The position numbers and the translations under genes are program-made. This document shows, piece by piece, positions 11,400 through 27,596 of a stretch of DNA of 38,552 bases. The stretch spans positions 1 through 38,552 of the forward strand of contig CALUPB010000024.1 in assembly GCA_944322585.1 (NCBI GenBank), given 5' to 3'. The notes under the pieces are model-generated. The model had not been told where the DNA came from and made no database searches. It saw only the letters and a program-made list of their open reading frames with translations. Every line of letters begins with the position of its first letter. Positions within the stretch are counted from its first letter, which is position 1. The stretch is from an uncultured Bacteroidales bacterium. Lineage in GTDB: Bacteria; Bacteroidota; Bacteroidia; Bacteroidales; UBA932.

Positions 11400-11491
11400 C
11401 AGTCAAGAATACTGTTCTTTCCGGTCCTCCCCACTTCGTGGGTCCCCTCCCTTTTCGGGAGCCAATGCCGGAAGAACAGTATCCTTGACTG
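11400..11491. repeat. Structured palindromic intergenic element, copy 2
   Basis: The arms 11400-11424 and 11468-11491 pair over about 24 bp with one bulge and one G-T pair. Inside are two hairpins, cccac-ttc-gtggg (11430-11442) and ctccc-ttttc-gggag (11447-11461). The core matches the reverse complement of the element at 329-439 (CTCCC-AC...GGGTCCC-CTCCC), while the outer arms differ completely in sequence. The left arm begins right after the tex stop codon, so the element forms the first 3' structure on the tex messenger. Confidence 0.75.
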
Positions 11492-11592
11492 CCCATGTAA
11501 GTACGATTAAACGACAAAAGGCTTGACATTCTTTTGAGAATCGAATATTTGAAAGGGGAGCTGGAGTTGACTTCGTTGAAAAACAAAGCAAA

Positions 11593-11624
11593 AGGGGATG
11601 ACTTTTATTTTCGAGTCACCCCCT
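11593..11624. terminator. Bidirectional terminator between tex and the small acidic gene
   Basis: The arms aggggatgact (11593-11603) and agtcaccccct (11614-11624) form an 11-bp stem with one G-T pair. A T-rich run follows on the plus strand (atgttttt), and on the minus strand the stem is followed by ccttttgctttgttttt. The position between two convergent genes fits a bidirectional rho-independent terminator. Confidence 0.65.
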
Positions 11625-11632
11625 ATGTTTTT

Positions 11633-11660
11633 CCGCAGTCGCCGCTGCGGTTTATTTTTC
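11633..11660 (+). terminator. Rho-independent terminator, plus strand
   Basis: The stem ccgcag/ctgcgg (11633-11638 with 11645-11650) is followed directly by tttatttttc. It probably backs up the preceding hairpin in ending the tex transcript. Confidence 0.6.
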
Positions 11661-11705
11661 TGTCAATTTACAGAGATGTCCTGTTGTCCCAACACCTCAC
11701 AGCAA

Positions 11706-12062
11706 TCAGTCCCCTTCGGAAGAATCGTCGTCACCTGTGGAGTACTGTGCTATATCGCTGTCAGGGAGGTCATCGCTGTCTCCTCCTGAAGATACTCCGG
11801 AATCATCGTCATCATCACCGTCAAGCCATCTTTCTATATCCTCGGCATCATCCGTCTTGACCTTTATCTTCACAAGATAAATCGCATCAGGAATCTCCAG
11901 TGTAACGGCATAGAAACTTGTCCCGTCCGGCTTGTCGTACTTCACGAGATCCGGGAAATAATCATTGAACCCTTTAGGGTACTTCTCCGCAAATGCAGCA
12001 GCCAGTTCCTGCGACATGTTCTCATAGCTGACCACCGCTCTTTTCTTCTGTTTGCTATCCAT
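11706..12062 (-). CDS. Small conserved Bacteroidales protein with acidic tail
   Basis: This is a 118-residue cytoplasmic protein with no signal peptide or membrane helix. Residues 1-80 form a compact-looking domain (VVSYENMSQELAAAF, then PDGTSFYAVTLEIPDAIYLVKI). Residues about 85-118 are almost entirely Asp, Ser and Gly and are probably disordered. I recognise the N-terminal pattern as one that recurs in uncharacterised Bacteroidales proteins, without a known function. It stands alone, convergent with tex and downstream of the PUL but probably separately transcribed. The DNA coding for the tail is a run of GAT/TCC-type codons. Confidence 0.75.
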   Translation of the reverse strand: MDSKQKKRAVVSYENMSQELAAAFAEKYPKGFNDYFPDLVKYDKPDGTSFYAVTLEIPDAIYLVKIKVKTDDAEDIERWLDGDDDDDSGVSSGGDSDDLPDSDIAQYSTGDDDSSEGD

Positions 12063-12085
12063 ATAGAATACAAATTACTACCTCA

Positions 12086-12119
12086 AGTTTCGCAAGTTCA
12101 TAATTGCGAAAGTCAAAAT
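12086..12119 (-). promoter_or_regulatory. Putative promoter and leader palindrome of the small acidic gene
   Basis: On the minus strand, TAATTTTG (12112-12119) fits the TAnnTTTG -7 box, 50 nt before the start codon. Just downstream of it lies a perfect 8-bp inverted repeat, tttcgcaa (12086-12093) and ttgcgaaa (12102-12109). It could be an operator or a 5' leader hairpin. No TTTG lies at the expected -33 distance, so the promoter call is tentative. Confidence 0.35.
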
Positions 12120-12202
12120 TACTACTTTCAGTTTTTCCGGGTGCAATTATAGGGATATTTTTCTGAATGACGATAATATAAATTCACTTTTTTCATTTTT
12201 AG

Positions 12203-12227
12203 AAGCTGTTTTGCAAAACAGCTTTTT
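12203..12227. terminator. Perfect 22-bp palindrome, possible terminator
   Basis: AAGCTGTTTTGCAAAACAGCTT is a perfect palindrome (12203-12224) followed by TTT on the plus strand. It lies about 50 nt downstream of the PL8-GH88 stop codon, where a transcript end on the minus strand is expected. On the minus strand the following bases (ctaaaaatg) lack a proper U-tract, so function as a terminator there is uncertain. Confidence 0.4.
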
Positions 12228-12275
12228 ATTGCCACCCCGGGACATAAATCACGGGATAACCGGCACTGACGACAG

Positions 12276-15200
12276 TCAATGCAACTTCCTGTACCGTTCG
12301 AGGGCTTCGAGAAAATAGTAATCTGCATAAGTCAGAGGCACATCCACTTCCGAATCTCCCGGTTTGTTGCCTACGCTGTGTTTCAGCAGGAAACCGCGAA
12401 GCTCCCCTTCCTCTGCAAGATAGCTGTCATCCGCCAGAGTCCTGAGCATCTTCTCCGCCACAGCCAGATAACGCTGCTGCCGCTCTCCCCCGGAGTATAC
12501 AGCCAGCTCTATCAGTCCGCTTGCCATGACAGCCGCAGCAGAGGCATCCCTGTAGTCGTCAGGAATCATGTCAGAATCGAAATCCCAGTATGGAATCCCG
12601 TCATCTGGGAGTCTCGGAACAATATATTCGGCCACGGCAACGGCATGTTCAAGGAACTTCTGGTCACGGGTGAAACGGTAAACCATCGTGTAGGCATACA
12701 GTGCCCACGCCTGTCCTCTGGCCCAGGCAGAGCTGTCAGCAAAGCCCTGTACAGTCTGGCGTCCTGCGACCTTGCCCGTCTGCGGGTCATAGTCCACAAG
12801 GTGGAAACAGCTGTTGTCAGGACGGAAATGGTTCTTCATGGTAGTTTCCGCATGCGCAATGGCGACATCCCTGTATTCCTCCTTCCCGGTCAGTTCATAT
12901 GCCTTGAGCAGAAGCTCCATATTCATCATATTGTCTATGATGACGGGAAAAGACCATTTGCCGAAACTCCATGAGCGCGTACATCCTACAACCGGATTGA
13001 ATCTCGTACACAATGATGCGGCCGCCGTATCCATCACTTCAGCACAATGGCTGTCTCCCGTAAACGCGTATTCATTCCCGAAACTGCACATTATCTGGAA
13101 GCCTATGTCATGGTCATCCTTACGGTATTTCAGAGGTTCGAGGGCGGCGGTATATTTCTCCGCAAGGGCCTTCATATGCGGATCGGCAGTATAATTCCAG
13201 GTGTACCAGAGAGAACCGGGGTAGAAACCGGAACACCACCATCTTATCGGACTGGTCACAAGTTCCCCCACCGGAGTCAGACTGCGCGGAAAAAGTACCG
13301 TATCCCGGCCTGTACCTTCAGCGGCCTTGACGGCATCCGCTGCTGCCACAAGATTGCCGTCAAGCAGGGCGAACTGCTTCCGTGCCCTTTCGAAGACCCT
13401 GCCGGTCAGATGCTTCATGGTTTCAGGGAGTTCAGAGACAGACAACCTGCCGTTCCCTGAACGGATGATTACCGACGGTGTATCCACCTCGAAGAAGACT
13501 CCGTCGAGATCATACTGCCCCGGTCTGTGCAGGACTGCGCACACTACGTCGCCCCGACGGACAGCCTGACAGTCCGCATCGTTACGCAGCACAGATACGG
13601 GAGCCTTACGGCCTCCCTTTGCATACTTCTTTGCGAATGAAGCGGTCTCACCTGCCGTAGCGCACGGCACCAAGGCATAGGCATACGATCCCTCATGGCC
13701 GTCCGCAAGCTCTCCGACCGGATGGTCGAACCAGCATTTGAATACCCGTCCTTCATCCCACCTGTCATGGAAAGCAGGATCTATGGCATCCCATTTCCCT
13801 CTCTGCAGGCTGTCGCTTACATGGATTTCAGAGCCGTCCAGGCTCACATATCCCCTGCCGTCATGGTGCACCCATCCGGGACCGCGTTCTATTTCCCCCG
13901 CAAGGTGTATCTGATCAACCGCCGTGGTGACTTCCCGTATGTCCTCTCTGGAGATACTGATATCCGAGCCGAGATTCACCACACAGTCCGAAAAAAAGAA
14001 AACACTCTTGAAAGCATGGAGTCCGTCCCTGTCGAGTTCCATGGTGGCGGCCATCACATCTCCTTCAGCCACTCCGCCCACATGGGAAGACCAGTTCCTC
14101 TTGGCGATTACGGAATCATCGCATTTTATCGGACGTCCGTCATCATATGCTGTCACCCCAGGCACTTTCCGCCAGTCCCAGTACGCGAAAATGTTCTCGA
14201 ACTCCTTCCCGTCCTGCATGAGGATGAGCGCACCGTCTGCAGAGAAATTGGCAAGGGTATTCTCCCTGTTGGTGAATTCGAATCCTACCGTACGTTCAGA
14301 GTGCATCCTTATCGAGGCATACCAGTCCGGCCTGCGATAGATACCGCAGTCGGAGCGGCTGTAATACCGTGAACCTGTCAGGGTATTGTCATATTTTTCG
14401 GGCATGAGATTCTCCATGGCAATCCTGGTATACAGTTCCCTGTCCCCATCCACTGCCGCCGCCATATTCTGCGCCGCCACGGCAAGGGCAAAGGCCTTGC
14501 CCGTACCTCCGTCAATGAAGTTCTGACGTCCGCAGAAACTCGGATCCATCACACCCTTATACACACTCCAGCAGATGCCTTCCTTCATCATGTTCGAGAC
14601 TATATCCTCCTGTTCCTTGTCAAAGGCGTATGGGGAATCCTTCAACACCCTGAGCCAGAACGATATTCCGTCCGCATATGCAAGTCCGTAGTTGCCGAAC
14701 TGTATCTGCGGGCCGTGCTGGTGGAAAGACCAGTCTCTCTGGATACCCTCGGAATCAGTCACGTATATTTCCTCTGCAATCTGTTCCTTTGCCTTGATGA
14801 CCAAAGCCTCATCGTCAATCAGCAGACCTTTCATCAGGTTATTGCCTGCAAGCCAGGCCTTGTTCTGGCCCGTCATGCCGAACTTCGAACGTTCCAGGAC
14901 CTTCAGACCTCCGGCAATTTCTTCCGGGGAGAGTTCATCCCGCAACATGAGGAGGACTGCAGTCATTTTCTTCGGCACTCCGATGTCATTATGCCACCAG
15001 TTCGGACAGACAGGCATGTTGCGGAACCACCATGCCATGGCCGAATGCAGCAGGTCATGCAGCCTGTCCGAACCTTCCCATTTCTGTCCGGGATATTTAT
15101 AGAGCTTGGCAAGGGCATACATGCGTGTGACATGAAGGGTCGCCGGCCACCTTCCCCTGTCCTGGGCCGTATAGTCTATGTCCGTCCAGCAGCCGTTCTC

Positions 15201-15482
15201 CCAATCATATGCGTCCAGGAGTCTTTGAACCTCACTGTCAGGGAGATGCACTGCCATATAAAGCTGCAGCAACAGAACATCGTTGGCCCTGCCGTAGTCC
15301 GAGTATTCAATGAATTTCCATGTCACATCTTCATCCGGAGCATAAGACACGACTGATGCTTCCACAAAGGCTTTTCTTACCTCTTCAAGGGGAGCCTCCG
15401 AATCCCCCGTAGCTCTGGCAGAAATTTCCGTGAACGGTAACGGAAATACAAGTGCTAAAAACAGCGGCAAAAACTTTTTCAT
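12276..15482 (-). CDS. Fused PL8 polysaccharide lyase and GH88 unsaturated glucuronyl hydrolase
   Basis: This 1068-residue exported enzyme has a signal peptide (about 1-24) without a lipobox, so a periplasmic site is likely. Residues about 30-720 are a complete PL8 lyase: the alpha/alpha toroid has the aromatic patch NWW (161-163), and N207 (TGQN), H256 (HQHG), Y265 (GNYG) and R319 (CGR) match the spacing of N175, H225, Y234 and R288 of chondroitinase AC. The beta domain has NREN with E407 and a WDWRKVPGVT motif. The second arginine of the active site (R292) aligns with I323. Residues about 735-1068 are a complete GH88 domain: HD at 791-792 and D850 match D88 and D149 of Bacillus UGL, and WARGQAW is at 920-926. 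PL8 cuts uronic-acid polymers by elimination to delta-4,5-unsaturated disaccharides; GH88 removes the unsaturated uronate. It is the last PUL gene. Confidence 0.9.
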   Translation of the reverse strand: MKKFLPLFLALVFPLPFTEISARATGDSEAPLEEVRKAFVEASVVSYAPDEDVTWKFIEYSDYGRANDVLLLQLYMAVHLPDSEVQRLLDAYDWENGCWTDIDYTAQDRGRWPATLHVTRMYALAKLYKYPGQKWEGSDRLHDLLHSAMAWWFRNMPVCPNWWHNDIGVPKKMTAVLLMLRDELSPEEIAGGLKVLERSKFGMTGQNKAWLAGNNLMKGLLIDDEALVIKAKEQIAEEIYVTDSEGIQRDWSFHQHGPQIQFGNYGLAYADGISFWLRVLKDSPYAFDKEQEDIVSNMMKEGICWSVYKGVMDPSFCGRQNFIDGGTGKAFALAVAAQNMAAAVDGDRELYTRIAMENLMPEKYDNTLTGSRYYSRSDCGIYRRPDWYASIRMHSERTVGFEFTNRENTLANFSADGALILMQDGKEFENIFAYWDWRKVPGVTAYDDGRPIKCDDSVIAKRNWSSHVGGVAEGDVMAATMELDRDGLHAFKSVFFFSDCVVNLGSDISISREDIREVTTAVDQIHLAGEIERGPGWVHHDGRGYVSLDGSEIHVSDSLQRGKWDAIDPAFHDRWDEGRVFKCWFDHPVGELADGHEGSYAYALVPCATAGETASFAKKYAKGGRKAPVSVLRNDADCQAVRRGDVVCAVLHRPGQYDLDGVFFEVDTPSVIIRSGNGRLSVSELPETMKHLTGRVFERARKQFALLDGNLVAAADAVKAAEGTGRDTVLFPRSLTPVGELVTSPIRWWCSGFYPGSLWYTWNYTADPHMKALAEKYTAALEPLKYRKDDHDIGFQIMCSFGNEYAFTGDSHCAEVMDTAAASLCTRFNPVVGCTRSWSFGKWSFPVIIDNMMNMELLLKAYELTGKEEYRDVAIAHAETTMKNHFRPDNSCFHLVDYDPQTGKVAGRQTVQGFADSSAWARGQAWALYAYTMVYRFTRDQKFLEHAVAVAEYIVPRLPDDGIPYWDFDSDMIPDDYRDASAAAVMASGLIELAVYSGGERQQRYLAVAEKMLRTLADDSYLAEEGELRGFLLKHSVGNKPGDSEVDVPLTYADYYFLEALERYRKLH

Positions 15483-15507
15483 GAATATTGAATTGCGGTT
15501 AAAAGTT

Positions 15508-15515
15508 CAAAGATA
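15508..15515 (-). promoter_or_regulatory. Putative own promoter (-7 box) of the PL8-GH88 gene
   Basis: TATCTTTG on the minus strand fits TAnnTTTG exactly and lies 26 nt upstream of the ATG at 15482. A TTTG occurs 24 nt further upstream, longer than the usual 19-21 nt, so the -33 box is weak. A direct repeat (aaacatctg twice, 15542-15561) lies just upstream and might bind a regulator. Confidence 0.4.
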
Positions 15516-15596
15516 ATAAGAAGTTGTTTAAATTTCTGACAAAACATCTGAAAAACATCTGTGCCAGTGCGGAACATAAAGATATGACACAATAAA

Positions 15597-15627
15597 GTCC
15601 GGGTCGGGAACGAAGCCTGACCCGGAC
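15597..15627 (-). terminator. Terminator hairpin after the FISUMP lipoprotein gene
   Basis: gtccgggtc (15597-15605) pairs with gacccggac (15619-15627), extendable to 12 bp with one mismatch. On the minus strand the stem is followed by tttattgtg. It lies 24 nt after the stop codon of the lipoprotein gene and inside the 169-nt gap before PL8-GH88, so it would uncouple that gene, at least partly, from the upstream PUL genes. Confidence 0.6.
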
Positions 15628-15651
15628 AAAATCTATATTGGAATCGGGATA

Positions 15652-17748
15652 CTATCTGTTTTCCGTGTCTTTCATACAGCGGACAGGATACCCGTGCGCC
15701 CTGTTTGCCTGCTGAACTTGAGTCCAAGGTTCCGACTTATACCGATAACAGAACATATAAGCTCGTGCTCCATCCTGTTCATAGCTTGTAACAGTGGAAT
15801 TAGACCAACAACCGCAGATATCATGTGAATTATCATCTGGATTTCCGCCTGTATCCCCCCATTTGCAACCGCTGAACGGCCATACTGCCTGAGAACCATC
15901 AGGAAGTTTATAATACATGAAGTTCGGTTCCGAGAACAAGTTTGCGTCAATAAATTCAGTCGTACCTGGCTGATAATATTTAGTCCCGTTATTTACAATA
16001 TCATCATATTTAAGAGTCATATTCTTATACAATTCTGCAAGGAGTTTCGGAGACGGCACCATATAGCCCTTCGGACACGGGTCATAGATCGATTTGGTAC
16101 CGACAGTCTGAACAATTTCCTCTCCTGTCAGATTTTGATTTCCCCAAAGATCATCCAGACGATCCGTTCTCGCTCCTGTATGTGCGCCAAGATACCAGTC
16201 TCCAGAAGATGAAGGATCAACGCCTTGAGTCCGGTAAAATACATCCGGATGTTCAGCTGACACTGCCAAATCAGTCACGACGGAAACTTCTCCTGCAAAA
16301 AGGCCTCCTGAAGCTGACCAGCCTGTCTGGAACGGACGGCCCCACTGATAATACGAACCTCCCTGATATCCATATCCCTTGTCATCAGAACCGATGTTCC
16401 TGTCAAGCATCACACCATTGACATATGTCTGCTCCGTAAGCTGTTCTTTGTTACCCCATACATTGAATGCCCAGATGCACACTCCGTCTTCATCATAAAG
16501 ACAGATCTTGGAACTGTAACCGGTATATGATCCGGCCGCATCAGCCTTGACTGTAACTTCATAATTGTCGTTGAGTGGAATAGTCACATACTGGGCTCCG
16601 TCCCATCCGTTCGTGCCATTGATAGTAAGATTGGTCTTGTTGTTGACATTCTGCTCGCAGGCATTGCGGACACGTATTGACACCGGCTTCCGGCAACGTA
16701 TGAAGTTTCCGCGTGCCTTGACATCGAACGTAACGGCATCACCGTCATAGTATGCGACGAAGCAGTTGGCCGGGCCGTAGCTCCAGCCGTCCCCGAAAGC
16801 CGCAACATATCTTGTCTCCACAGGCTCATACCAGTCGAACTCATTCGTTTCAGCACTGATATTGCTTACGGTAATCACTGACAGACAGCTCGCCCTCAGT
16901 TCTCCGCCTTCCACCTTCGCAGGAATCTCGACTGTCTTTGTCTTCGCAGCATCCTGCATGGTAACTATGACATACACTTCTTCCGCCCCCGTAAGGTCGC
17001 ATGGAAGAGCCGTAAAATAGAATTCCTGGGCTTCTGAAAATGCAGCAGGATTGGCGACAGTCACACCTGCATAATCCTTCGTGTCGGAATACACAGGTTC
17101 ACCGGACGCAAGATCGTATGAAATCTTACCTGAAAGCTGTGCGCCCGGAGAGTACAGCTTCGCACTGACTACATTGAGATCCGAATATTCGGATGTGGAC
17201 AGGACGAGCTTTACATATGCCGTTTTCTGCTCCAGGGCGAAATTGACATCTTCTGTCTGGCCTGCCTTGAGTGCGATTTCATCATACGCAAACGAGTAGT
17301 TACCCACATGGATACTTGAGTTCGGAGCAAGCTGGGTCTGTTTCTCCGGCACCGTCCCTGTTACAGTACCTTCTGAATAAAGGACAGAATTACCAGGATA
17401 TGTAATCACGACATCCATATCAGCAGCCGGACTCAAAGGATTGTATGTCTGGAACAGGCCTGATGTCTCCCCGGCTGTTTCAGAGAAAAGTTCAGCCTGT
17501 TCATTGACAAATGCCCCTGACACAGAAGCATCCTTGGAATTGATGGAAATTATGTCCCCCGCGCTCCAGAGAAGAGGATAGACCTCACCGTCTTTCTCCC
17601 CTATGGAAACCTTGGTGCCTATTGTCACCGTTCCCGACAATGTCATACGGTTGCCTTCCGCTGCCGGCTGTTCCAGTTTGTTTTCTTCTATAGAGCAGGA
17701 TACGGCTGCCAGTGCAGCTGTTCCTATGACTAAAATCATATTTTTCAT
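15652..17748 (-). CDS. Fimbrillin-like/FISUMP-domain lipoprotein, candidate surface glycan-binding protein
   Basis: This 698-residue lipoprotein has a signal peptide and a lipobox cysteine at 18 (LAAVSC). The N-terminal part (about 35-300) resembles fimbrillin/Mfa-like beta domains, with LLWSAGDIISI. The C-terminal part (about 420-698) is a FISUMP-type (Fibrobacter succinogenes major paralogous) domain, with GGSYYQWGRP, SIYDPCPKGYMVPS and the closing HGYPVRCM. Its place downstream of SusD is where Bacteroidetes PULs keep surface glycan-binding proteins. Glycan binding is inferred from position, not from a known binding module. Confidence 0.75.
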   Translation of the reverse strand: MKNMILVIGTAALAAVSCSIEENKLEQPAAEGNRMTLSGTVTIGTKVSIGEKDGEVYPLLWSAGDIISINSKDASVSGAFVNEQAELFSETAGETSGLFQTYNPLSPAADMDVVITYPGNSVLYSEGTVTGTVPEKQTQLAPNSSIHVGNYSFAYDEIALKAGQTEDVNFALEQKTAYVKLVLSTSEYSDLNVVSAKLYSPGAQLSGKISYDLASGEPVYSDTKDYAGVTVANPAAFSEAQEFYFTALPCDLTGAEEVYVIVTMQDAAKTKTVEIPAKVEGGELRASCLSVITVSNISAETNEFDWYEPVETRYVAAFGDGWSYGPANCFVAYYDGDAVTFDVKARGNFIRCRKPVSIRVRNACEQNVNNKTNLTINGTNGWDGAQYVTIPLNDNYEVTVKADAAGSYTGYSSKICLYDEDGVCIWAFNVWGNKEQLTEQTYVNGVMLDRNIGSDDKGYGYQGGSYYQWGRPFQTGWSASGGLFAGEVSVVTDLAVSAEHPDVFYRTQGVDPSSSGDWYLGAHTGARTDRLDDLWGNQNLTGEEIVQTVGTKSIYDPCPKGYMVPSPKLLAELYKNMTLKYDDIVNNGTKYYQPGTTEFIDANLFSEPNFMYYKLPDGSQAVWPFSGCKWGDTGGNPDDNSHDICGCWSNSTVTSYEQDGARAYMFCYRYKSEPWTQVQQANRAHGYPVRCMKDTENR

Positions 17749-17767
17749 ATCGCTTACGTTTTAATGG

Positions 17768-18232
17768 TTACCACTCGATTTCTTCAAGTTCTCCCGGATT
17801 GTTGTCTGTACTCCAGCCGTCAGGAAGGCCGACCGGATCCCATGTCACGTACTGCACATCCACTGCACGGCCTGTACTGTCATAAACGATTATTGCAGTG
17901 AGTTTCTTCTGTCCGAGTCTGATGTCAGTCAGAGTATTCGAATAAGGCAGTTCTATGTCAACACCATTCTCGATGACATAGTTCGTGAGCTGGATCTCGC
18001 TTTCAAGATCTATCGTGACATCCTGAAGATCGACCATCTCCACGATTCTGGCTCCATGGAAAGTACCGGCAGTCAGTTCCGCGTTGATGGTAGCGCAGTT
18101 GTCGGCAATCCCCGTCACTTCGAGGGAGACCTCGATGGTCTCCTGCTGGTTCTGCTGCCCGTTTTCAGGCTTGTTGCACCCGACAACCATAAATGTCATG
18201 GCAGCAGCGGTCAATAATAGAATTCTTTTCAT
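17768..18232 (-). CDS. Small lipoprotein of unknown function in the PUL
   Basis: This 154-residue protein has a clear lipoprotein signal (cysteine at 19, in MVVGC). The mature part begins with a Gln/Glu-rich spacer and is followed by beta-rich sequence (IEVSLEVTGIADNCATINAEL) that looks like one immunoglobulin-like or fibronectin-like sandwich. It ends in a Trp- and Glu-containing tail (DGWSTDNNPGELEEIEW). I do not recognise the family. It lies 19 nt upstream of the FISUMP lipoprotein gene and 42 nt after the lyase gene, so it is very probably co-transcribed and may belong to the surface complex. Confidence 0.75.
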   Translation of the reverse strand: MKRILLLTAAAMTFMVVGCNKPENGQQNQQETIEVSLEVTGIADNCATINAELTAGTFHGARIVEMVDLQDVTIDLESEIQLTNYVIENGVDIELPYSNTLTDIRLGQKKLTAIIVYDSTGRAVDVQYVTWDPVGLPDGWSTDNNPGELEEIEW

Positions 18233-18274
18233 GTTTTTTGATTTTGGTTATATAAAAGTGTTACTGTATGTCGC

Positions 18275-20221
18275 CTACAAGGCAGGATCGACCGGAGAAA
18301 GTTTTACTTTTACTGTCGCAGCATCCCCGGCTGAGACAGTAAGTTCATATCCGCATTCATAGTATCCGCTGTTGGATGCATCCCAGGAATTGGAACTTAC
18401 AGTGCTCCACGTCTTATATGCGACCCTGTCCCCTGTCGGGGAAGTTGCAGACAGATAGAGATTCTTTCCTGTCGCACTTGCGAGCTGGATACGGTTGAAA
18501 CTGATTGTCGGATTGGCCCTCGTAACCATTGTCCATCTCACCACGGCATCCTTGTCCGCCCTGGCGGCAATCCTGTCCTCGACTATCAGATCATCTCCTT
18601 CCATATAAATGGTCCTGACAGCAGACTTGACTTCATTGCTCAGCGGAGCAGTTATATCGACTGTCGCCCCTTTCTGCCCTCCGGAATTGATGACACCGGT
18701 TATCTCTCCTTCTCCTGCAACCCTGTGATATGTGTCATTTATAGTAAGAGTACTGTGATTGAAGTTATTGTATCGGAATGCAGTCCACCTCTGCGAACCG
18801 TCGTTCATGTCCCAGAGATTAATATACGGCTCAAGGGTCCCATAGCTCTGAAGTCCGAGATCGGCCGACCAGCGCACACCGAAAGCATCATAGACAAAAC
18901 TCCCTGCATCCATGTGGGCATGACTTGTATTGGCCTTTCCGCCTTTGATACCGAGGAATTTGTCAGTCTCATCCATTGCCCAGTTTTCATGTATGAGCAC
19001 GACCGGAGTAGTACCTTCTCCCCTGAAAATCGGCTCTGAAGGAGCAGATATCGCACTCAACGTGACATTTGCGGCATAATAGGCGACAAGAGGGAGAAGC
19101 CTTGCTTCAGCACAGCCTGCATAGCTTCCTATACGGTCCTGTTCAAGATACAGGAGGGACAGGTCGTTGAACTTCCATGCGAAATACCATTGCGCAAGGC
19201 ACGGAACGCTGCTCGGAGCACAGTCGGAATAATTGAAACATGCCCTTGTAGTCCCCTCCATGTAGAGCATGTATTTGCCGGTCTGCGAAAAGCCCGACAC
19301 ATTCGAAAGTCCTGCATCCGTGCCTGCCGCCGTTTCAAGGGCCGTCAGCATCAGAGCTTCATAAAGGGTTCCGTAACACCAGTATGAATATCCTTCCGGA
19401 TAATTCCCGTCCGGGGAATACATCGCTTCCATTGCCGGAAGATTGGTTTCAATCGCTTTTTCTATTATACCCTGCGCGACAGACGAATTATTCTCATAGA
19501 CGGCAAGTGCCGCACATACCAGCCCGCCGTTGCAGACCTGGTTCCAGTTGCTCTCCGCTTCATAGAAATTCAGATTCCAGATCCCTTCATTGGCAGGCGT
19601 GAATGCGAAATCATTCAATGCCTTCCTTGCAAGTGTCTTTGTATCTTCAGACAATTCATTATACAGCCAGTCATATCCGAGCCCGACACCGGCAGCCATC
19701 TCCCCCACATCAAGGAAGTGCTGGCGGGCATTCCAGTCGGAGAAATTACAAACAGTCTGAATATCATGCTCCGCCTGCTGAAGGTATTTTTCGTCTCCGG
19801 TAGTCTTGTAGGCATAGGCACAGAACAGTATCCTCTGCTCCGCTGTCCGGCTGACGGACAGCAGGCGCTTGCCTGACAGTTCATATTTGATATCCGCCGC
19901 TCCGACATAACCGTTGGCAGAAGATATTATCCTGCTGTGTATCGAATTGAACGCATCGTCTGCTCCGGAAGAGACTTTTTCCCTGATTGCAGCAAAATCC
20001 TCATCGGTAAAGATTATCCTCGGATGATTGTCCGCTGTCAGTCTGGAATAATCAGGATCCGTGAAAGATACCGGAGGCTCCGGAGTATCAGTTCCGCTGT
20101 CTTCCGTCAGGTTCTTGTCGCTGTCCCCCGGATAGAACATCGGGTAGCCCTTCTCCGCACAGCCTCCAAGCAGAAGGACAGCAGCGAGTGCAAACATTGT
20201 AAATTTATTTCTGTTCATCAT
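18275..20221 (-). CDS. Heparinase II/III-fold polysaccharide lyase lipoprotein
   Basis: This 648-residue lipoprotein (cysteine at 21 in LLLGGC) has an Asp/Pro/Glu-rich spacer to about 55. An alpha/alpha toroid follows (about 60-390) with NHPRIIFT, SNWNQVCNGG and the tyrosine-rich NYPEGYSYWCYG (about 273-284). The C-terminal heparinase II/III beta-sandwich (about 395-645) has SHAHMDAGSF (433-442) and WSADLG. The His and Tyr residues in these motifs match the catalytic positions of PL12/PL21-type lyases. The exact CAZy family (PL12, PL21, PL33 or other) cannot be fixed by eye. The lipid anchor puts it in the outer membrane, where it could cut the polymer before SusC import. The neighbouring PL8-GH88 gene suggests a glycosaminoglycan substrate. 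Confidence 0.85.
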   Translation of the reverse strand: MMNRNKFTMFALAAVLLLGGCAEKGYPMFYPGDSDKNLTEDSGTDTPEPPVSFTDPDYSRLTADNHPRIIFTDEDFAAIREKVSSGADDAFNSIHSRIISSANGYVGAADIKYELSGKRLLSVSRTAEQRILFCAYAYKTTGDEKYLQQAEHDIQTVCNFSDWNARQHFLDVGEMAAGVGLGYDWLYNELSEDTKTLARKALNDFAFTPANEGIWNLNFYEAESNWNQVCNGGLVCAALAVYENNSSVAQGIIEKAIETNLPAMEAMYSPDGNYPEGYSYWCYGTLYEALMLTALETAAGTDAGLSNVSGFSQTGKYMLYMEGTTRACFNYSDCAPSSVPCLAQWYFAWKFNDLSLLYLEQDRIGSYAGCAEARLLPLVAYYAANVTLSAISAPSEPIFRGEGTTPVVLIHENWAMDETDKFLGIKGGKANTSHAHMDAGSFVYDAFGVRWSADLGLQSYGTLEPYINLWDMNDGSQRWTAFRYNNFNHSTLTINDTYHRVAGEGEITGVINSGGQKGATVDITAPLSNEVKSAVRTIYMEGDDLIVEDRIAARADKDAVVRWTMVTRANPTISFNRIQLASATGKNLYLSATSPTGDRVAYKTWSTVSSNSWDASNSGYYECGYELTVSAGDAATVKVKLSPVDPAL

Positions 20222-20267
20222 CTTTGACTTTTATCATTCTTACTCAAGATTCTTGAAAATGGCAGGA

Positions 20268-22187
20268 CTAATATGCCCAGCCCGGTTTCTGCTTGAGGTT
20301 AGGGTTACGCTGACATTCTCCAGCAGGTGCTCCCCATGGATACATGTCATCCGTATAATACCAGTTATAGTTGTAGCCTTCCCATTCTCCCCACCAGTTC
20401 TGTCCGCCATACGTATCCTGTCCCTGGAATTTCATTTCCTTATAGGTTCCCCATCTCCATTCATCGAAAAAGTCGTGTCCTTCAAGACAGAGTTCCACAC
20501 GGCGCTCGTAACGTATAGCTTCCATCACCTGCTCGTCCGTTCCGGTGGAAACAGGCGGCATTCCTGCCCTTGATCGGATCTGGTTGACTATATCGACAGC
20601 ATCACCTGCCCGTCCGACGTGAACATATGCCTCCGCGAGCTGGAGAGCCACATCCGTATAGCGGATCAGCGGCCAGTCGGTAGGACAGCGAAGGCGGTCT
20701 ATCAGATCTTCAGGCTTGTTGTATGAATATTTCTTGTATACATACATTGTCTGATAATCCCCTATGTAATAGTCACCGTAATTATCTCCCTCATTCAGGA
20801 AAGGCCATCTCAGTTCCTTGCCTATCTGGATCTGTCCGCCATTGTCCGTCGCATCCTTGAATGTGTCATACGGTTCATATGGAGTAAGGACTATGTCTTT
20901 CAGACGCGGATCGCGCTTCTCGTAGGCAGCCCTTACGCGATCTTCGTTCCCTTCCGGCTTATAATATTCCTTGAATATATCCACACCGATACGCTGTATT
21001 CTTTCGCGGATTATCCCGGCCTCGTCATCCGACCAGTACCTTGTTCCGTCCTGTTCCGTTATAACATTGTCATTCCCGTCCAGATATATTCCATCCCTTA
21101 TAAAGAATACCTCCCTCTTGGTCAGATCATTCTGGAATACTGCATCATTCCATTCCGGGATGACGTCTTCCCAATGGAATTCAGAACCGTCCTCATTCTG
21201 GAAATAATCCACAAAATCAGATGCAGGGCGGACATTAGACCAGCTGTTCCAGGTATCGCGGCCTCCGATCATCAACTGGAGATTGTCGCAATAGCCGGCA
21301 TCTGAAGTGAACTGGAGAGGGAAAATCATCTCGTGATCTTTCTCATTGGTATAGTTGAAGAAATCTATGAATTTTCCTGCCCAAAGTCCATACCCGCAAT
21401 CATCGACCTTCTCGAAATCATTGACCGCCATCTGATAATACTGGTCTGCGCTGTATTCAGTCGGTGTTTCACCTCTCTCTGCTTCATATGCAAGCCACAT
21501 GTAGGCCATCCCCCGCAGCGAATAGGCAGCACCTTTGGACGGACGTCCGTAATTATCCGTCAGGGTATTGTCCGGGCAGTAAGGACTGTCTATACAATAC
21601 GTAAGGTCTGTGACGACTGCATTCCACACCTCCACGGCAGTGGACTGACCCTTTGTACACTGATCCTCCGATATCACCTCAAGATAAAGAGGCACACCCC
21701 CATATATCTTGTTAAGTCTGGAATAGAACCATGCCCTCAGGAAACGGGCCTCGCAGATATAACGTTCATACTTTTCAGTCGAAAGGCCGGCACGGTGCAG
21801 ATTGGCAAGGGCATCATTTATCTGATGGACAGACGTATATGCCCATTTCCATTCATACCATACCACGAACTCCGTCGCATCCTTCGTAGCATCCGAAAGG
21901 GCGCGGAGATGATAGTTGTCCGAAACGAAATCCGTCTGGAACTCCATACCCATCCAGCCCTGACGGTTGATTCCCGTCATGTCATTGTGTCTCAACTGTA
22001 TTCTGGACAGGTCATCCCTGTAGAAATTGTCGTAAAGCCCGGCCATACCTTTGTCCGCCAGACTTTCCGTAGTCCACATGTTGGCACTTGCTATCTGGTT
22101 TGCCGGAGCGATATCGAGCATGTCCGTACAGGAAACGGCCGGCAGCACCGCAAGGGCGAAAGCGAAAAATCCGTAATGTTTCATCAT
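20268..22187 (-). CDS. susD: SusD/RagB-family outer-membrane glycan-binding lipoprotein
   Basis: This 639-residue protein covers the SusC pore and binds the oligosaccharide before import. It has a signal peptide with lipobox cysteine 20 (LPAVSC) and the start TDMLDIAPANQI, typical of SusD. TPR-like helices follow (YICEARFLRAWFYSRL), and the C-terminal RagB segment includes YERRVELCLEGHDFFDEWRWG. The ATG at 22187 is preceded by a good GGAGGA ribosome site; a longer frame to 22202 would use a weak codon abutting the SusC stop. The gap to susC is only 15 nt. Confidence 0.95.
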   Translation of the reverse strand: MMKHYGFFAFALAVLPAVSCTDMLDIAPANQIASANMWTTESLADKGMAGLYDNFYRDDLSRIQLRHNDMTGINRQGWMGMEFQTDFVSDNYHLRALSDATKDATEFVVWYEWKWAYTSVHQINDALANLHRAGLSTEKYERYICEARFLRAWFYSRLNKIYGGVPLYLEVISEDQCTKGQSTAVEVWNAVVTDLTYCIDSPYCPDNTLTDNYGRPSKGAAYSLRGMAYMWLAYEAERGETPTEYSADQYYQMAVNDFEKVDDCGYGLWAGKFIDFFNYTNEKDHEMIFPLQFTSDAGYCDNLQLMIGGRDTWNSWSNVRPASDFVDYFQNEDGSEFHWEDVIPEWNDAVFQNDLTKREVFFIRDGIYLDGNDNVITEQDGTRYWSDDEAGIIRERIQRIGVDIFKEYYKPEGNEDRVRAAYEKRDPRLKDIVLTPYEPYDTFKDATDNGGQIQIGKELRWPFLNEGDNYGDYYIGDYQTMYVYKKYSYNKPEDLIDRLRCPTDWPLIRYTDVALQLAEAYVHVGRAGDAVDIVNQIRSRAGMPPVSTGTDEQVMEAIRYERRVELCLEGHDFFDEWRWGTYKEMKFQGQDTYGGQNWWGEWEGYNYNWYYTDDMYPWGAPAGECQRNPNLKQKPGWAY

Positions 22188-22202
22188 CTGTTCCTCCGTC
22201 AA

Positions 22203-25200
22203 TTAAAATGTTACCTGTGCCCCGACCGATACCTGTCTCATCAGCGGATAACCGATCGTCCCGCCGAGTTCCGGATCCATTCCCGGGAATGAAGTGATCG
22301 TCAGCAGGTTTTCACCGGACACATAGAACCTGAGCTGTTTCACGAAAAATTTCCTTGTGATATTTTCCGGAAGGGTATATCCTATCTGGACATTTTTCAG
22401 CTTCATATAGTCTCCCTTGTATTCATAGAAATCGCTCTGTTCACGGTTACGGTCATCCCCCGCATAAAGCCGGGGATATGTTCCCCATATGTTCGTTCTC
22501 GGATCGGAAGGATTTTCAGGGTCATAGAAATAATGGTCATCCGCCACTTTCTGGCTCAAGGCATATCCCCATGTCACATTGGTAGCATTGTAATAGTTTG
22601 AATTCCAGAATATATAATAGTCAAAAGCCCCTGTCCATAGCATACTGAAATCTATCCCTTTCCAGGAAAAGCCCAGATTTATTCCGAGATTATATGCAGG
22701 AGTGGAACTCTTGCCGTTGAAATCCATATCGTAGGAATTGCCGTAATTTCCATCCCCGTTTGTATCGGCATAGATGAAGTCTCCATACCAGAGCTGGTCT
22801 TTGCTGACTGTAGTCACTCCGTTGAAACTGTATCCGGACTCTATCATTGCCCGTACCCACTGCATATCGGTCTCAGTACGGATGATACCGTCCACAGGAC
22901 CTGCATTGACATCCACCTGCCCTCCAGTATAGCCGACGCCGGTTCCCCTGTATCTCTGATATATATAATGCTCCCCTATTTCATGCCCTTCAATCAGTTT
23001 TCCCGGAGAAGACCAGTTCTCGGATACATCCGACAGGTTGGTGTAATAGTTGCCCTGACCGTCGTATCCTCTTGAAAGCTGTCCCTTGAAGGCCGTCACC
23101 CTGTTCCTGTTGAATGAGAAATTGACTCCAGCATAATAGTAGAAGTCGTCCCCGATGGTATCTTTCCAGTTCAGGGCGATCTCTATACCCTGGTTCCACA
23201 TGCTTCCGAGATTGGATGGCACCTGGGTGAAATTACCCATCGTGAGGTATGTACTCGGAGTAAAGAGAATATCAGTAGTATTCTTATGATAATAGTCCAC
23301 CTCTGCCGAAAGCCTGTCATTGAAGAAACCGGCGTCGATACCTATATCAGTAGTCGTGGTTGTCTCCCATTTGAGGTTGATATTGCTCATGGTCTTGATA
23401 AACAGTGATGTTGCATTGACACCGTCCACGACAACCTGCCCAGTGTTATAGGTCGCCTGCCATGCGAAATTGCCTATACCGAGGTTGTTGCCCGTCTGTC
23501 CCCAGGAAGCCCTGAGCTTGAGATGCGACAGCCACGTCCTTGTATCTGCCATAAACGGCTCCTCGTGTATCTTCCAACCGGCCGAAAATGACGGGAAGAA
23601 ACCGTAACGGGTATTGGAGCCGAAACGGGACGAACCGTCCGCCCTGAAATTGGCCTCGAAAAGATAACGGTCCTTGTAGGCATAGTTGACACGGGCGAAA
23701 TACGAGCGGAGCCCCCAGCCTGTCCTTGAAGTATAGGAAGAATCATATAGAGTGGAATATGTGCCGCCCTCATTGAGAGTCCAGTCCGTTGCACCCTGTT
23801 TGCGCACCTGATATGCCCATGTTCTGTACGATATGGCCGAATATCCGAGAATTGCCCCGACTGTATGATCTCCGAAAGTCCCGTCATACCTTGCAAGCAG
23901 TTCCGTAGACATCCTGTAATCCCTGTATGTACGGTCTGTCACCATAGCCTTCGACAGATCGGAAGATGAATATCTCGTGTCAGTTATATAATCCCAGTAA
24001 CCGTTCTCCCTGCTGTATGTATGGTTAAGGCCGAAAGTAGGGGCATAATTGAAGGTTCCTTCAATACTGACGCCTTTATAAGGTCTTATCTTGGCATAAA
24101 GAGTCCCGTTTATTCTCCAGGTATGCTTGGTTCCGTCGCTCCCCGCCATCTGTCCGAAAATATTGTTCGCATTCGGACTCTCTTCATTGTTGGCAGGCCT
24201 TCCCCAGGCGTTTTCACTGCCTGGATAAATACCAGGAGTAGTCTGATACAGATAGCCGAACCCGTTTTTGATATTGGCCGTACCGTCCGACTGGAACTGA
24301 CCGTATATCTTGGTCCCGATTGTAAACCATTTGAGGACATCCGCCTCGAGATTGGCCCTGAAATTCGCTTTCTTCGAAGATGAATCGAGATTGAAACGGT
24401 TCATGACTCCCTCATTGTCAAGATAACCGGCCGAAATAAGATAACGCACGGTCTTGCTTCCTCCCGAAATGCTCAGGTTATGTTCCTGCGAGTAGCCGTT
24501 CTGGAAAATCTCATCGAACCAGTTGGTGTTGGGATAGGCGACATAGTTCGGCACCCCATATTCGTTAAGTCCGTACGGATCTGCGGCAGCTGCCTTCCAG
24601 GTGTCTATATTCGTCTGTGAAAAACGCCTGGATGTCCCTGCATTGTCGCATCCCTCATTGAAAAGTTCCATATAAGTGGCGTAGTCCTGAACCCAGTCAA
24701 GGTCATTATAAGGCATCTGGAATATTCCTTTATAAGAATAGCTTACCCTCGGCCTCTCCTCTGAACCGGACTTGGTCGTAACAAGGATGACACCGTTTGC
24801 GGCACGTGTTCCGTAAATTGCAGTTGAGGCGGCGTCCTTCAGGATGGAAATGGACTCTATGTCATTCGGATTGACATCATCCATATCCCATTCTATACCA
24901 TCGACAAGGACGAGAGGTGCACTTGCATCAGTATTATCATTGACTGTAAATGATCCGACGCCACGAATGCGTATGCTCGTCTTCTCCTCTCCAGGCTGTC
25001 CCGTAGTCTGCATCACGCTCATACCCGGTGCCAGACCGGCAAGGGCAGCGGAGGTATTCACTATAGGACGTCCCTCCGCGATGGTTCCGAACTCGATGGA
25101 AGTCACGGAACCGGTGATATTGGCCTTTCTCTGGGTACCATAACCTACAACAACGACTTCCTCAAGAAGTTCGGCATCTTCCCGCATGGTCAGATCAATG

Positions 25201-25784
25201 ACATCGCTGATACCAACAGGCATCGTTACAGTCTGATAGCCAAGACATGAGAAGACGAGTGTGGAATTTTCCGCATCTCTGACCTCAAGTCTCCAATTGC
25301 CGTCAAGGTCTGTCTGGGTACCGTTCAAAGTCCCTTCAACCATTACAGTCACCCCGATAAGAGGCTCCCCGCCGACATCGGATATATGTCCTGACAGAAT
25401 CCTCGGACCTTGTCCCGGTACTGCGTTCCGCTCTTCCTGGTCCCTTGCCGGAGCAGACAGGGCCACTACCTGGTCCAGGATTTTCCATGTTATCCCTGTA
25501 CCGGAAAGGACCTGTTCCAACAATGTATCCAGAGACGCTTTCTCCGCATTGACATTGACTTTCCCGATGACAATACTCTCCATCGATGTCTCGTAAGAGA
25601 ATGTGACACCCGTCTGGTTTGTGAATTCATCAAGCACCTGGCCGAGAGGCGCATCCGTGAAATACATCTTCAGGCTGTACTCCTGCTGTGCTATCGGCAT
25701 TGCCAACACCGGCAGCAGGCACGCTGCAGACACGGCGACGGACAGGAAGACCGCTTTCAGAAAAAATAGATTGTCTGTCTTCAT
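22203..25784 (-). CDS. susC: SusC-type TonB-dependent transporter with N-terminal STN signalling domain
   Basis: This 1193-residue outer-membrane importer pairs with the SusD protein. After the signal peptide come an STN (secretin/TonB N-terminal) domain (about 35-110), a carboxypeptidase-D regulatory-like domain (about 128-200), the TonB-box region EEVVVVGYGTQ (208-218), a plug domain, and a 22-strand barrel ending in the usual aromatic residue (GAQVTF). The STN domain is found in transporters that signal to a FecR-type anti-sigma factor, and such a pair lies directly upstream. It imports oligosaccharides with energy from TonB/ExbBD. The substrate is inferred as uronic-acid oligosaccharides from the lyase genes of the operon. 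Confidence 0.96.
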   Translation of the reverse strand: MKTDNLFFLKAVFLSVAVSAACLLPVLAMPIAQQEYSLKMYFTDAPLGQVLDEFTNQTGVTFSYETSMESIVIGKVNVNAEKASLDTLLEQVLSGTGITWKILDQVVALSAPARDQEERNAVPGQGPRILSGHISDVGGEPLIGVTVMVEGTLNGTQTDLDGNWRLEVRDAENSTLVFSCLGYQTVTMPVGISDVIDLTMREDAELLEEVVVVGYGTQRKANITGSVTSIEFGTIAEGRPIVNTSAALAGLAPGMSVMQTTGQPGEEKTSIRIRGVGSFTVNDNTDASAPLVLVDGIEWDMDDVNPNDIESISILKDAASTAIYGTRAANGVILVTTKSGSEERPRVSYSYKGIFQMPYNDLDWVQDYATYMELFNEGCDNAGTSRRFSQTNIDTWKAAAADPYGLNEYGVPNYVAYPNTNWFDEIFQNGYSQEHNLSISGGSKTVRYLISAGYLDNEGVMNRFNLDSSSKKANFRANLEADVLKWFTIGTKIYGQFQSDGTANIKNGFGYLYQTTPGIYPGSENAWGRPANNEESPNANNIFGQMAGSDGTKHTWRINGTLYAKIRPYKGVSIEGTFNYAPTFGLNHTYSRENGYWDYITDTRYSSSDLSKAMVTDRTYRDYRMSTELLARYDGTFGDHTVGAILGYSAISYRTWAYQVRKQGATDWTLNEGGTYSTLYDSSYTSRTGWGLRSYFARVNYAYKDRYLFEANFRADGSSRFGSNTRYGFFPSFSAGWKIHEEPFMADTRTWLSHLKLRASWGQTGNNLGIGNFAWQATYNTGQVVVDGVNATSLFIKTMSNINLKWETTTTTDIGIDAGFFNDRLSAEVDYYHKNTTDILFTPSTYLTMGNFTQVPSNLGSMWNQGIEIALNWKDTIGDDFYYYAGVNFSFNRNRVTAFKGQLSRGYDGQGNYYTNLSDVSENWSSPGKLIEGHEIGEHYIYQRYRGTGVGYTGGQVDVNAGPVDGIIRTETDMQWVRAMIESGYSFNGVTTVSKDQLWYGDFIYADTNGDGNYGNSYDMDFNGKSSTPAYNLGINLGFSWKGIDFSMLWTGAFDYYIFWNSNYYNATNVTWGYALSQKVADDHYFYDPENPSDPRTNIWGTYPRLYAGDDRNREQSDFYEYKGDYMKLKNVQIGYTLPENITRKFFVKQLRFYVSGENLLTITSFPGMDPELGGTIGYPLMRQVSVGAQVTF

Positions 25785-25844
25785 ATTGGTTATATAAGTT
25801 CAACAATTAGTGTATCTAATCTGCAGTGCATGATTCCTGCTGGA

Positions 25845-26717
25845 TTATTCAAGGCTGAATGTCATTCCTTTGCAGACAAATTCGAGCATGTCGAGGATAT
25901 CCCCTATGTCGCTGTCCTTCTGGAAACTGAAATTGTATGTGGTTCCCTCGTCCTCCCCCGATATGCTTATCTTCACTCCGTATATTCCGGAAATTTCCGA
26001 GACGATCTCCCTGACCGTAGCCCCTTTCAGGGAAACGGCCCCGTAATGCCTCATCAGCATGTCACCGACATATATATCATTGATTTCAAGGGACTCTACC
26101 ATCGTATCATAGACTGCCTGCTGTCCGGGACGCAGTCGTACGAGATTGACTCCGTCGAGATTCTGCATGGCCACCGAACCCTGGGCAAGGGAAACTTCCG
26201 GTCTTGCGTCACCGGGAAAATTCCTGACATTGAAAACCGTTCCGAGCACCTTGATACGGAAGCTCTCCGTGGTGACGATGAACGGACAGTCCGGATTGTG
26301 CGCCACATCGAAATAGGCCTCTCCAGAAAGGGAGACATTCCTGTCATCGGTATTGAACGAACGGCCGAATGTCAGTTCCGTACCTGGATTGAGCCATGCC
26401 TGCGTCCCGTCCGGCAGACCGACCATGACGGCGGTCTCTCCATTGTTGGCATAACGCTGAAGACTGTCGTCATATGTAACGGAAACGGTCACCGCCACTG
26501 TGGAAATTACAATGGCGAGAGCTGCAGCCACCGGATACGCCCACTGTTTCAGGAATGACTTGCGCGAATTGCGCTGCATCGTATCAATCCTGGCATTGAG
26601 GAGCTTCAGAGACTCCTCCGTGTCTTTGTCCGGGCTGTCCGAAAACAGGGCACGCATGGCCCGGTCCAGCAATTTCAGGTCATCCGTTTCTTTAAATCCG
26701 TGTAATGTATCTTTCAT
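25845..26717 (-). CDS. FecR-family anti-sigma factor
   Basis: This 290-residue inner-membrane regulator has an N-terminal cytoplasmic anti-sigma part (1-57), one membrane helix (about 58-82), a periplasmic FecR domain (about 90-190, with LPDGTQAWLNPGTEL and SGEAYFDVAHNP), and a C-terminal DUF4974-like domain (about 220-290, with GATVREIVSEISGIYGVKI). It would hold the neighbouring ECF sigma factor inactive until the SusC STN domain reports ligand. It lies between the sigma gene and susC. Confidence 0.93.
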   Translation of the reverse strand: MKDTLHGFKETDDLKLLDRAMRALFSDSPDKDTEESLKLLNARIDTMQRNSRKSFLKQWAYPVAAALAIVISTVAVTVSVTYDDSLQRYANNGETAVMVGLPDGTQAWLNPGTELTFGRSFNTDDRNVSLSGEAYFDVAHNPDCPFIVTTESFRIKVLGTVFNVRNFPGDARPEVSLAQGSVAMQNLDGVNLVRLRPGQQAVYDTMVESLEINDIYVGDMLMRHYGAVSLKGATVREIVSEISGIYGVKISISGEDEGTTYNFSFQKDSDIGDILDMLEFVCKGMTFSLE

Positions 26718-26929
26718 TTTCGGTCGCGTTACAGACTATATACGCAACCACCCCGAAAAACACCTAAGAGAAATCCGACTTTTTTCAAAAAACGGAAAAA
26801 TGTATATCATCCTGTCCGGTCCATGCACTGCCATTACAGGTGATTTTGGCATAGTTATAATCAATGCGATTTTTGACTGTCAAAGTCAGGAATTTTACGT
26901 CGTTTCTACATAAACCGTTACATTTACGC

Positions 26930-26947
26930 AACGGCTCGGGAGCCGTT
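26930..26947 (-). terminator. Hairpin directly after the ECF sigma gene
   Basis: aacggct-cggg-agccgtt (26930-26947) abuts the stop codon of the sigma gene on the minus strand. On that strand the following bases (gcgtaaatg) are not T-rich, so this may be an attenuator or processing site rather than a full terminator between sigma and fecR. The rest of the 230-nt gap shows no promoter I can support. Confidence 0.4.
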
Positions 26948-27523
26948 TTAATCATGAAGGGATGAGAGGGCTGAACGGAGACGGACAAGGGCACTGTGGA
27001 TATGATTCTCGACTGTTGACACACTGAGGCCGAGACGGACACTTATTTCCTTGTCGGACAGATTTTCCACATAGCTGAGCAGGAAAACCTCCCTGCATCT
27101 TGGCGGCAGTTTCGATATGGCATTGTCGAGAATCGAACGGATATCGCGGCTGTACAGTGTCCGGAGAATCTCGCTCCTGTCCACATCATATCTGGCATAA
27201 TACTCCTTGACTTCCCTGACTATACTGTCATTATGACTGAGCGCGGAAAGATTATGCCTTATAGTGCTTATGGCCGCATTGTAGGTACTCCGGAGGAGAA
27301 AACTTCTGATGTTACCCCCCCCTGACGACTCGGGAAGAAGACCTTTCCTTCCGAGCCAGAGCTTGAAGAAGACATCCTGTACGATATCCCTGGCGACCTC
27401 CCGGCTGACCATCAGTCCGGCATAATTCACCAAAAGAGGACAGAGCCGTCTGTACAGTTCATCGAAAGCCTCCCTGTCGGAACGGCTTATGCGCATCACT
27501 ATGTCATCGAATTCCCTGTCCAC
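26948..27523 (-). CDS. ECF-type RNA polymerase sigma factor of the PUL
   Basis: This 191-residue sigma-70 family protein has region 2 (about 12-85, with ARDIVQDVFFKLW) and region 4 (about 130-186, with KLPPRCREVFLLSYVENLS and the helix-turn-helix LSVSTVENHIHSALVRLR). It is the Bacteroidetes sigma-70/ECF type that pairs with FecR proteins. The start used is GTG at 27523; an ATG at 27496 (MRISRSDREAF) would also keep all of region 2. It should direct transcription of susC and the downstream PUL genes. Confidence 0.92.
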   Translation of the reverse strand: MDREFDDIVMRISRSDREAFDELYRRLCPLLVNYAGLMVSREVARDIVQDVFFKLWLGRKGLLPESSGGGNIRSFLLRSTYNAAISTIRHNLSALSHNDSIVREVKEYYARYDVDRSEILRTLYSRDIRSILDNAISKLPPRCREVFLLSYVENLSDKEISVRLGLSVSTVENHIHSALVRLRSALSSLHD

Positions 27524-27580
27524 CCGTATCGCTTTTCTGAATTAAGACCGTAAAAATACTGCTTTTATGATTATCCGCAA

Positions 27581-27596
27581 TCCTCCTGCAGGAGGA
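27581..27596. repeat. Perfect 16-bp palindrome downstream of the YgiQ-type gene
   Basis: tcctcctgcaggagga is a perfect palindrome in the 79-nt gap between the YgiQ-type stop and the ECF sigma start. No T-tract follows on either strand. It could be a binding site for a dimeric regulator of the sigma gene, or part of a weak terminator. Confidence 0.35.

Follow-up and report, generated by a model that had tools for sequence, protein, structure and literature searches.

A PL8 lyase and a GH88 unsaturated glucuronyl hydrolase predicted in a single chain of a Bacteroidales polysaccharide locus

In Bacteroides thetaiotaomicron, the locus for chondroitin sulfate, dermatan sulfate and hyaluronan encodes two PL8 lyases, BT3324 and BT3350, and a GH88 unsaturated glucuronyl hydrolase (UGL), BT3348, as separate proteins that perform two periplasmic steps (PMC6994673, PMC9067506). 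Here, we analyse a stretch of 38,552 nucleotides from an uncultured Bacteroidales bacterium (assembly GCA_944322585.1, contig CALUPB010000024.1, positions 1 to 38,552), referred to as the window, in which one coding sequence of 1068 aa on the minus strand (12276..15482) is predicted to hold the same two steps. The B. thetaiotaomicron locus also contains sulfatases and a hybrid two-component sensor, while the locus of the window has an extracytoplasmic function (ECF) sigma factor, a FecR protein and no sulfatase. PUL25, a polysaccharide utilization locus (PUL) of B. caccae, has a similar pairing of PL35 and GH88, together with a glucuronate dehydratase, and acts on unsulfated chondroitin; however, its enzymes are separate, and the term PL8 is absent from the main text of PMC12269599. 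Consecutive steps on a uronate polysaccharide in one protein are described for Formosa agariphila P36 (GH78 and an S1_25 sulfatase), which differs in its enzyme families and in its substrate, ulvan (PMC8511951).

In known pathways the two steps come one after the other (PMC9067506, PMC12269599), as the preliminary description of this DNA had stated. The fusion naturally combines in one protein two steps that have otherwise been studied with separate enzymes. The literature searched, which did not include CAZy, brought up no description of a PL8-GH88 fusion.

Two enzymes in one reading frame

The frame runs for 1068 codons from ATG to stop without an internal stop, and the plus strand of the region has several stops in the frame read. 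Pfam identifies Lyase_8_N (residues 93–319), Lyase_8 (372–608) and Lyase_8_C (630–683), i.e., the domains of PL8 in their order, followed by Glyco_hydro_88 (749–1054; 48.1 bits, cut-off 26.6), all over their cut-offs. In phmmer searches the E-values, 4e-107 to 3wiw and 9e-62 to 1cb8, are far beyond chance, and the NCBIfam equivalog model for chondroitinase AC gives 255.1 bits, below its cut-off of 1000. Based on Pfam and an alignment to the active site of chondroitinase AC, the PL8 part covers residues 28–686 (13425..15401, minus strand). The GH88 part, from Pfam and alignments, covers residues 687–1068 (12279..13424, minus), and the joint, placed by a structural model and alignment, lies at residues 685–695 (13398..13430, minus). 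A signal peptide at about residues 1–24 (15411..15482, minus) is of the Sec type as judged by eye and has no lipobox by pattern. These features agree with the periplasmic location proposed earlier, which is predicted from them.

The PL8 half resembles the chondroitinase AC type lyases 1cb8 and 1hm2 in fold and active-site residues but is only 23–25% identical to them, and the fusion adds the C-terminal GH88 enzyme. N207, H256, Y265 and R319 align with N175, H225, Y234 and R288 of 1hm2, in agreement with the preliminary description. However, E407, listed there as part of the same set, aligns with Glu376. Its neighbour E402 aligns with Glu371, which we take to be the catalytic glutamate of chondroitinase AC, and N405 aligns with Asn374; catalytic roles of Arg288 and Asn374 are likewise assumed. 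Thus, E402 is likely the catalytic glutamate of the PL8 half. For the PL8 enzyme 1RWA, a histidine, a tyrosine and an asparagine are tabulated as catalytic residues (PMC12088678). All six PL8 residues are intact in 10 of 10 PL8 rows of our alignment (A1).

The GH88 half is 47% identical to 3wiw and shares its fold across the whole domain. While 3wiw is a stand-alone protein of 402 residues, the GH88 of the fusion directly follows PL8 and lacks its own signal peptide and lipobox. D792 and D850, the aspartate pair proposed earlier, align with residues mutated in solved UGLs (D88N in Bacillus, D115N and D175N in Streptococcus) and are kept in all 25 GH88 rows of A1, which includes 21 stand-alone GH88s and leaves out those of L014, L022, L024, L027 and L031. 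Conserved positions in the GH88 part are D792, D850, W749, H791, W838, H894, Q912, W920, R922 and W926.

At the level of sequence it is confirmed that a predicted complete PL8 lyase is joined to a predicted complete GH88 enzyme and that the chain contains the catalytic residues of both. The single uninterrupted chain of the preliminary description holds. Residues 700–740, where it had considered a stop or frameshift, read through and align with the N-termini of stand-alone GH88s and with three other fusions; it had also considered a domain lacking its fold or active-site residues, and both domains keep them in the alignments.

From these comparisons we infer that both halves are active and cooperate: the protein would be a soluble periplasmic two-step enzyme closing a glycosaminoglycan-type locus, its halves cooperating by tethering, a reading that we consider fairly likely. 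The PL8 half would cleave imported oligosaccharides by beta-elimination, leaving a delta-4,5-unsaturated uronyl end, and the GH88 half would take off this end as 5-keto-4-deoxyuronate, releasing the amino sugar. The cooperation of the two sites would rest on tethering and a fixed 1:1 ratio, the product diffusing between them without a channel.

Several observations weigh against this proposal. 3wiw, the solved GH88 nearest to this half (363 aligned residues), bears a heparin-specific title. This misfits a hyaluronan or chondroitin product, so that the GH88 half may or may not accept the product of its own PL8 half. PL8 enzymes that are active on glycosaminoglycans cleave hyaluronan and chondroitin, in which the bond between uronate and amino sugar is 1,3 versus 1,4 in heparin (PMC5430744). 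Xanthan lyases and an alginate lyase also belong to PL8, so the family does not fix the substrate. The genome has other GH88 genes, and at least one relative has lost GH88 from the same locus (see below), so the tether is dispensable. Finally, the active-site loops of PL8 (246–264, 308–327 and 393–415) have a predicted local distance difference test score (pLDDT) below 50, so the geometry of the sites in the model is uncertain.

In the model, the last PL8 strand ends at residue 684 and the first GH88 helix starts at 689, with no spare linker. This predicted compactness is what would be expected if GH88 were held so that the disaccharide goes directly from site to site, the hand-over that the preliminary description had proposed. 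However, the arrangement of the domains is uncertain (predicted template modelling score, pTM, 0.58), other fusions carry GH88 at either end, and in PL8 structures the C-terminal domain lies far from the catalytic cleft. We therefore regard direct channelling as very improbable.

Origin and loss of the fusion

A scan of genome contigs gave 32 loci (L001–L032). Beside the window's own copy, PL8 and GH88 share one frame in three of these (L001, L002 and L003). They are found in two adjacent frames in L006 and as separate divergent genes in L007. PL8 occurs without GH88 in L004, L005, L008 and L009, and GH88 without PL8 in L010–L032, of which L031 ends at a contig edge and could have a fused partner there. 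The fusion is present in 3 of 300 genomes of a genus sample (E cut 1e-150), 2 of 299 of a family sample (1e-100), 1 of 393 of an order sample (1e-100) and 1 of 395 of a phylum sample (1e-90); the samples overlap, every count includes the window's own genome, and at most two candidates were scored per genome, so that a third-ranking fusion would escape. The genus-sample genomes G041 and G260 carry L001 and L003, respectively (identical frames). Two other candidates were rejected: a frame of 1135 aa in G888 has stops between PL8 and GH88 in its DNA (L099) and is not counted, and the hit in G159 (frame listed over 63–1067, one TAA) consists of two adjacent genes (L104).

The fusion of the window is 76–77% identical to the other three fused copies. 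Between L001 and L003, the ratio of nonsynonymous to synonymous rates (dN/dS) is 0.086 for PL8, 0.075 for GH88 and 0.108, from few changes, for residues 680–730; in the other fused pairs the synonymous sites are near or beyond saturation. These low ratios show that selection maintains both halves at the protein level. The joint is real, common to a small clade of the same genus group, and under purifying selection. The genome is a draft of 33 contigs, in which an error of assembly or binning could create such a frame. However, the same joint in three other records, the homologous linker and the purifying selection refute this.

The organization of L006 (= L108) suggests how the fusion arose. 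There, the stop of the PL8 gene is followed by one base and then by a GH88 gene whose product has a signal peptide and a lipobox. A simple pattern finds the lipobox in 19 of 21 stand-alone GH88 rows but not in any of the 10 rows of PL8s or fusions. The sequence of the fusion joint resembles the stretch after the lipobox, i.e., the mature N-terminus, of Cryptobacteroides-type stand-alone GH88 lipoproteins. In the GH88 tree the GH88s of the four fusions group in a single clade (100/98), to which the pair made up of the GH88 of L006 and that of L052 is sister (100/95 for the six rows together); no PL8 was found within the 15 kb examined around L052. Trees and gene order thus give good support to descent of the GH88 half from a stand-alone lipoprotein and to an origin of the fusion from neighbouring genes. 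We suggest that a PL8 gene was joined to the GH88 lipoprotein gene immediately downstream of it, at the mature N-terminus of GH88. This event would have removed the intergenic base, the stop and the signal, leaving GH88 without a signal peptide and a lipid anchor.

The fusion appears to have been reversed afterwards. L004, L005 and L009 contain the same locus genes (SusD, the PL35-like lyase, two lipoproteins and PL8) but no GH88, and the DNA 3' of their PL8 stops resembles that 3' of the fused genes in L002 and the window. A tblastn search for GH88 remnants in the stretches covered of eight loci with unfused PL8 (L004, L005, L008, L009, L106, L113, L114 and L117) gave only chance-level matches (best E 0.28). 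In the PL8 tree of 21 rows, L009 is the sister of the fused L002 (100/100). Placing all fused PL8s in one clade was rejected by the approximately unbiased test (p-AU 3.6e-5; 12 of the 21 rows), with the constrained group defined by fusion but the first tree already known. As L009 is sister to L002 and a single clade of fused PL8s is rejected, the simplest reading, which appears firm, is at least one loss of GH88 after the fusion. A second loss, for L004 and L005, is likely but less well supported: one fusion with two losses rests on forks of 84/86 and 92/99 in the 21-row tree, and in the 12-row tree the window, L106 and four pairs have no resolved order. The presence of fused, split and secondarily unfused forms in close relatives makes the value of tethering directly testable.

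These observations also bear on whether tethering matters. It is possible, but less probable than cooperation, that the fusion is near-neutral, i.e., that a stop and a signal peptide were lost between adjacent genes and both activities survived without kinetic gain. The single spare base in L006 and the loss of GH88 in L009 beside the fused L002 would both fit. On the other hand, the joint has been kept in four records of the divergence given above, and GH88 fusions with other lyases or with dehydratase relatives recur.

GH88 joined to other first-step enzymes

Outside the PL8 fusions, 16 GH88 matches were found in frames of at least 600 aa in the family, order and phylum samples, and 15 remained after G888 was set aside. 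None of the 15 frames has an internal stop, and their GH88s are 47–55% identical to that of the window over most of the length. In 12 of the 15, the partner is of a kind that makes a delta-4,5-unsaturated end. The set started from the GH88 of the window and from long frames only, so the proportion is not an unbiased rate; moreover, some of the 12 are closely related to each other.

The partner is PL35-like in L091, a heparinase of the 8r6z type in L090, and of the Alginate_lyase family in L096, L100, L101, L102 and L129. L101, the only one of these five compared with structures, has a PL38-like lyase (8bdq is a PL38; PMC12088678). The domain order varies: GH88 precedes the lyase in L102 and L129 and follows it in L096, L100 and L101. 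In L092, L093, L094, L095 and L098, DUF2264 lies C-terminal to GH88. The DUF2264 part of L092 matches the glucuronate dehydratases 9o4u and 9nwf as well as 8oi4, named a beta-galactosidase (1e-101 to 1e-103). It is therefore likely that DUF2264 fused to GH88 makes the substrate of GH88. A literature search for DUF2264 together with GH154 in one paper gave no matches; the link came from the PDB sequences instead. Of the remaining three frames, L097 carries an esterase-like alpha/beta-hydrolase and L128 a fucosidase, and the partner in L103 matches a deacetylase weakly, under the cut-off.

The preliminary description pictured a single isolated fusion, which is too narrow, as in other Bacteroidota related GH88 domains are joined to other first-step enzymes too. 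The PL8-GH88 fusion seems to be part of a broader recurrent design in which GH88 is attached to first-step enzymes. This recurrence on lyases and dehydratase relatives suggests a simple way to predict what an unknown domain does when it is fused to GH88.

Two further multidomain chains were noted. In L096 (3320–8062, 1581 aa), Alginate_lyase, GH88 and GH2 lie in one chain, the GH2 part scoring best with beta-glucuronidase and beta-galactosidase models, below their cut-offs. L116 (4213–8067, = L007) joins PL8 to a Heparinase II/III-type domain in one frame of 1285 aa, with GH88 as a separate divergent gene.

The surrounding locus and its regulator

The fusion is the last gene of a run, all on the minus strand, with the order ECF sigma, FecR, SusC, SusD, PL35-like lyase, two lipoproteins and PL8-GH88. 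The ECF-type sigma factor (26948..27523) matches Sigma70_r2 and r4 only and is followed by a FecR-type anti-sigma factor (25845..26717), a SusC-like TonB-dependent transporter (22203..25784; N-terminal STN match weak, below cut-off) and a SusD-like protein (20268..22202). The PL35-like lyase (18275..20221) has a Heparinase II/III C-terminal domain and the best PDB matches 8khv and 8khw. The 154-aa lipoprotein (17768..18232), conserved in the locus, has no match in Pfam or NCBIfam. The 698-aa lipoprotein (15652..17748), likely a surface glycan-binding protein, has none in Pfam (E 1e-4), NCBIfam (0.001) or PDB (E 1). With a SusC/SusD pair, co-directed enzymes and a regulator, this run is a PUL. 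Among L001–L005 and L009, the larger lipoprotein is 39–81% identical, while SusC, SusD, the PL35-like lyase and the smaller lipoprotein are about 65–90% identical. An Rfam scan of window positions 9264–27603 gave no matches.

The neighbouring lyase offers another role for GH88: it could mainly serve the 1,4-linked heparosan or heparan products of the PL35-like enzyme, with the fusion only securing secretion and equal dosage. Three points favour this: the heparin-specific title of 3wiw, the position of the PL35-like lyase within the same gene run, and the activity of the PL35 GAGases, which 8khv and 8khw represent, on hyaluronan, chondroitin and heparan types (PMC12088678). However, the B. caccae GH88 acts on chondroitin products of PL35 and hardly on a heparin disaccharide (PMC12269599), 47% identity to 3wiw leaves the specificity unfixed, and in L006 the GH88 gene also lies directly 3' of the PL8 gene. 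We consider this role unlikely and prefer cooperation between the two fused halves.

No sulfatase was found in the locus, and the four sulfatase matches of the genome, two of them over the cut-off, are all off the window's contig. One of these two lies on contig C16, beside a GH88 and two lyases with Lyase_N, Lyase_catalyt and Lyase_8 domains, presumably the chondroitin-ABC layout. The absence of a sulfatase from the locus suggests a substrate of low sulfation, i.e., hyaluronan, unsulfated chondroitin or a heparosan-like polymer.

The regulator could be connected to the fusion. An ECF sigma factor and FecR are found in the window, in the fused L001 and L003 (= L133 and L134) and in the unfused L004 and L005 (= L135 and L136), so the regulator does not distinguish fused from unfused loci within the clade. 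In L006, where PL8 and GH88 are split, a hybrid two-component sensor lies upstream (L137, 12829–16785), but the SusC of this locus is only about 25–31% identical to that of the window. In B. thetaiotaomicron, the hybrid two-component sensor binds the unsaturated disaccharide, for which GH88 competes (PMC9067506). In the stretches of G339 (L116 and L138) no regulator was identified, and in L139 (G022) only FecR.

It can be speculated that GH88 is a finishing module, repeatedly joined at either end to enzymes that make delta-4,5-unsaturated uronyl ends, from PL8, PL35-like, PL38-like and heparinase-like lyases to glucuronate dehydratases, and that fusion tracks the type of regulator. The join would limit the amount of free unsaturated disaccharide in the periplasm, which would be tolerable under induction by ECF sigma and FecR but not in a locus that depends on binding of the disaccharide by a hybrid two-component sensor. 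The association of fusion and regulator is a suggestion; if true, the architecture of the enzyme and substrate sensing by the locus would be connected. In contig C9 of the same genome, an 822-aa fusion of a GH88-family domain and a beta-helix (L140, 3060–5525) adjoins a hybrid two-component sensor, against the regulator part of this idea, and lowers its odds. As a whole we hold it to be rather doubtful.

On contig C5 of the same genome, a PL8 paralogue with a C-terminal cupin (L118, 8714–11446) lies beside a second locus with SusC, SusD and a PL35-like lyase. The cupin part has no NCBIfam match; if it is KdgF-like, a further next-step enzyme would be fused to PL8. In the window, a 118-aa protein with an acidic tail and no NCBIfam match (11706–12062, minus) lies between the fusion and tex, and its start is also found 3' of PL8 in L002, L004, L005 and L009.

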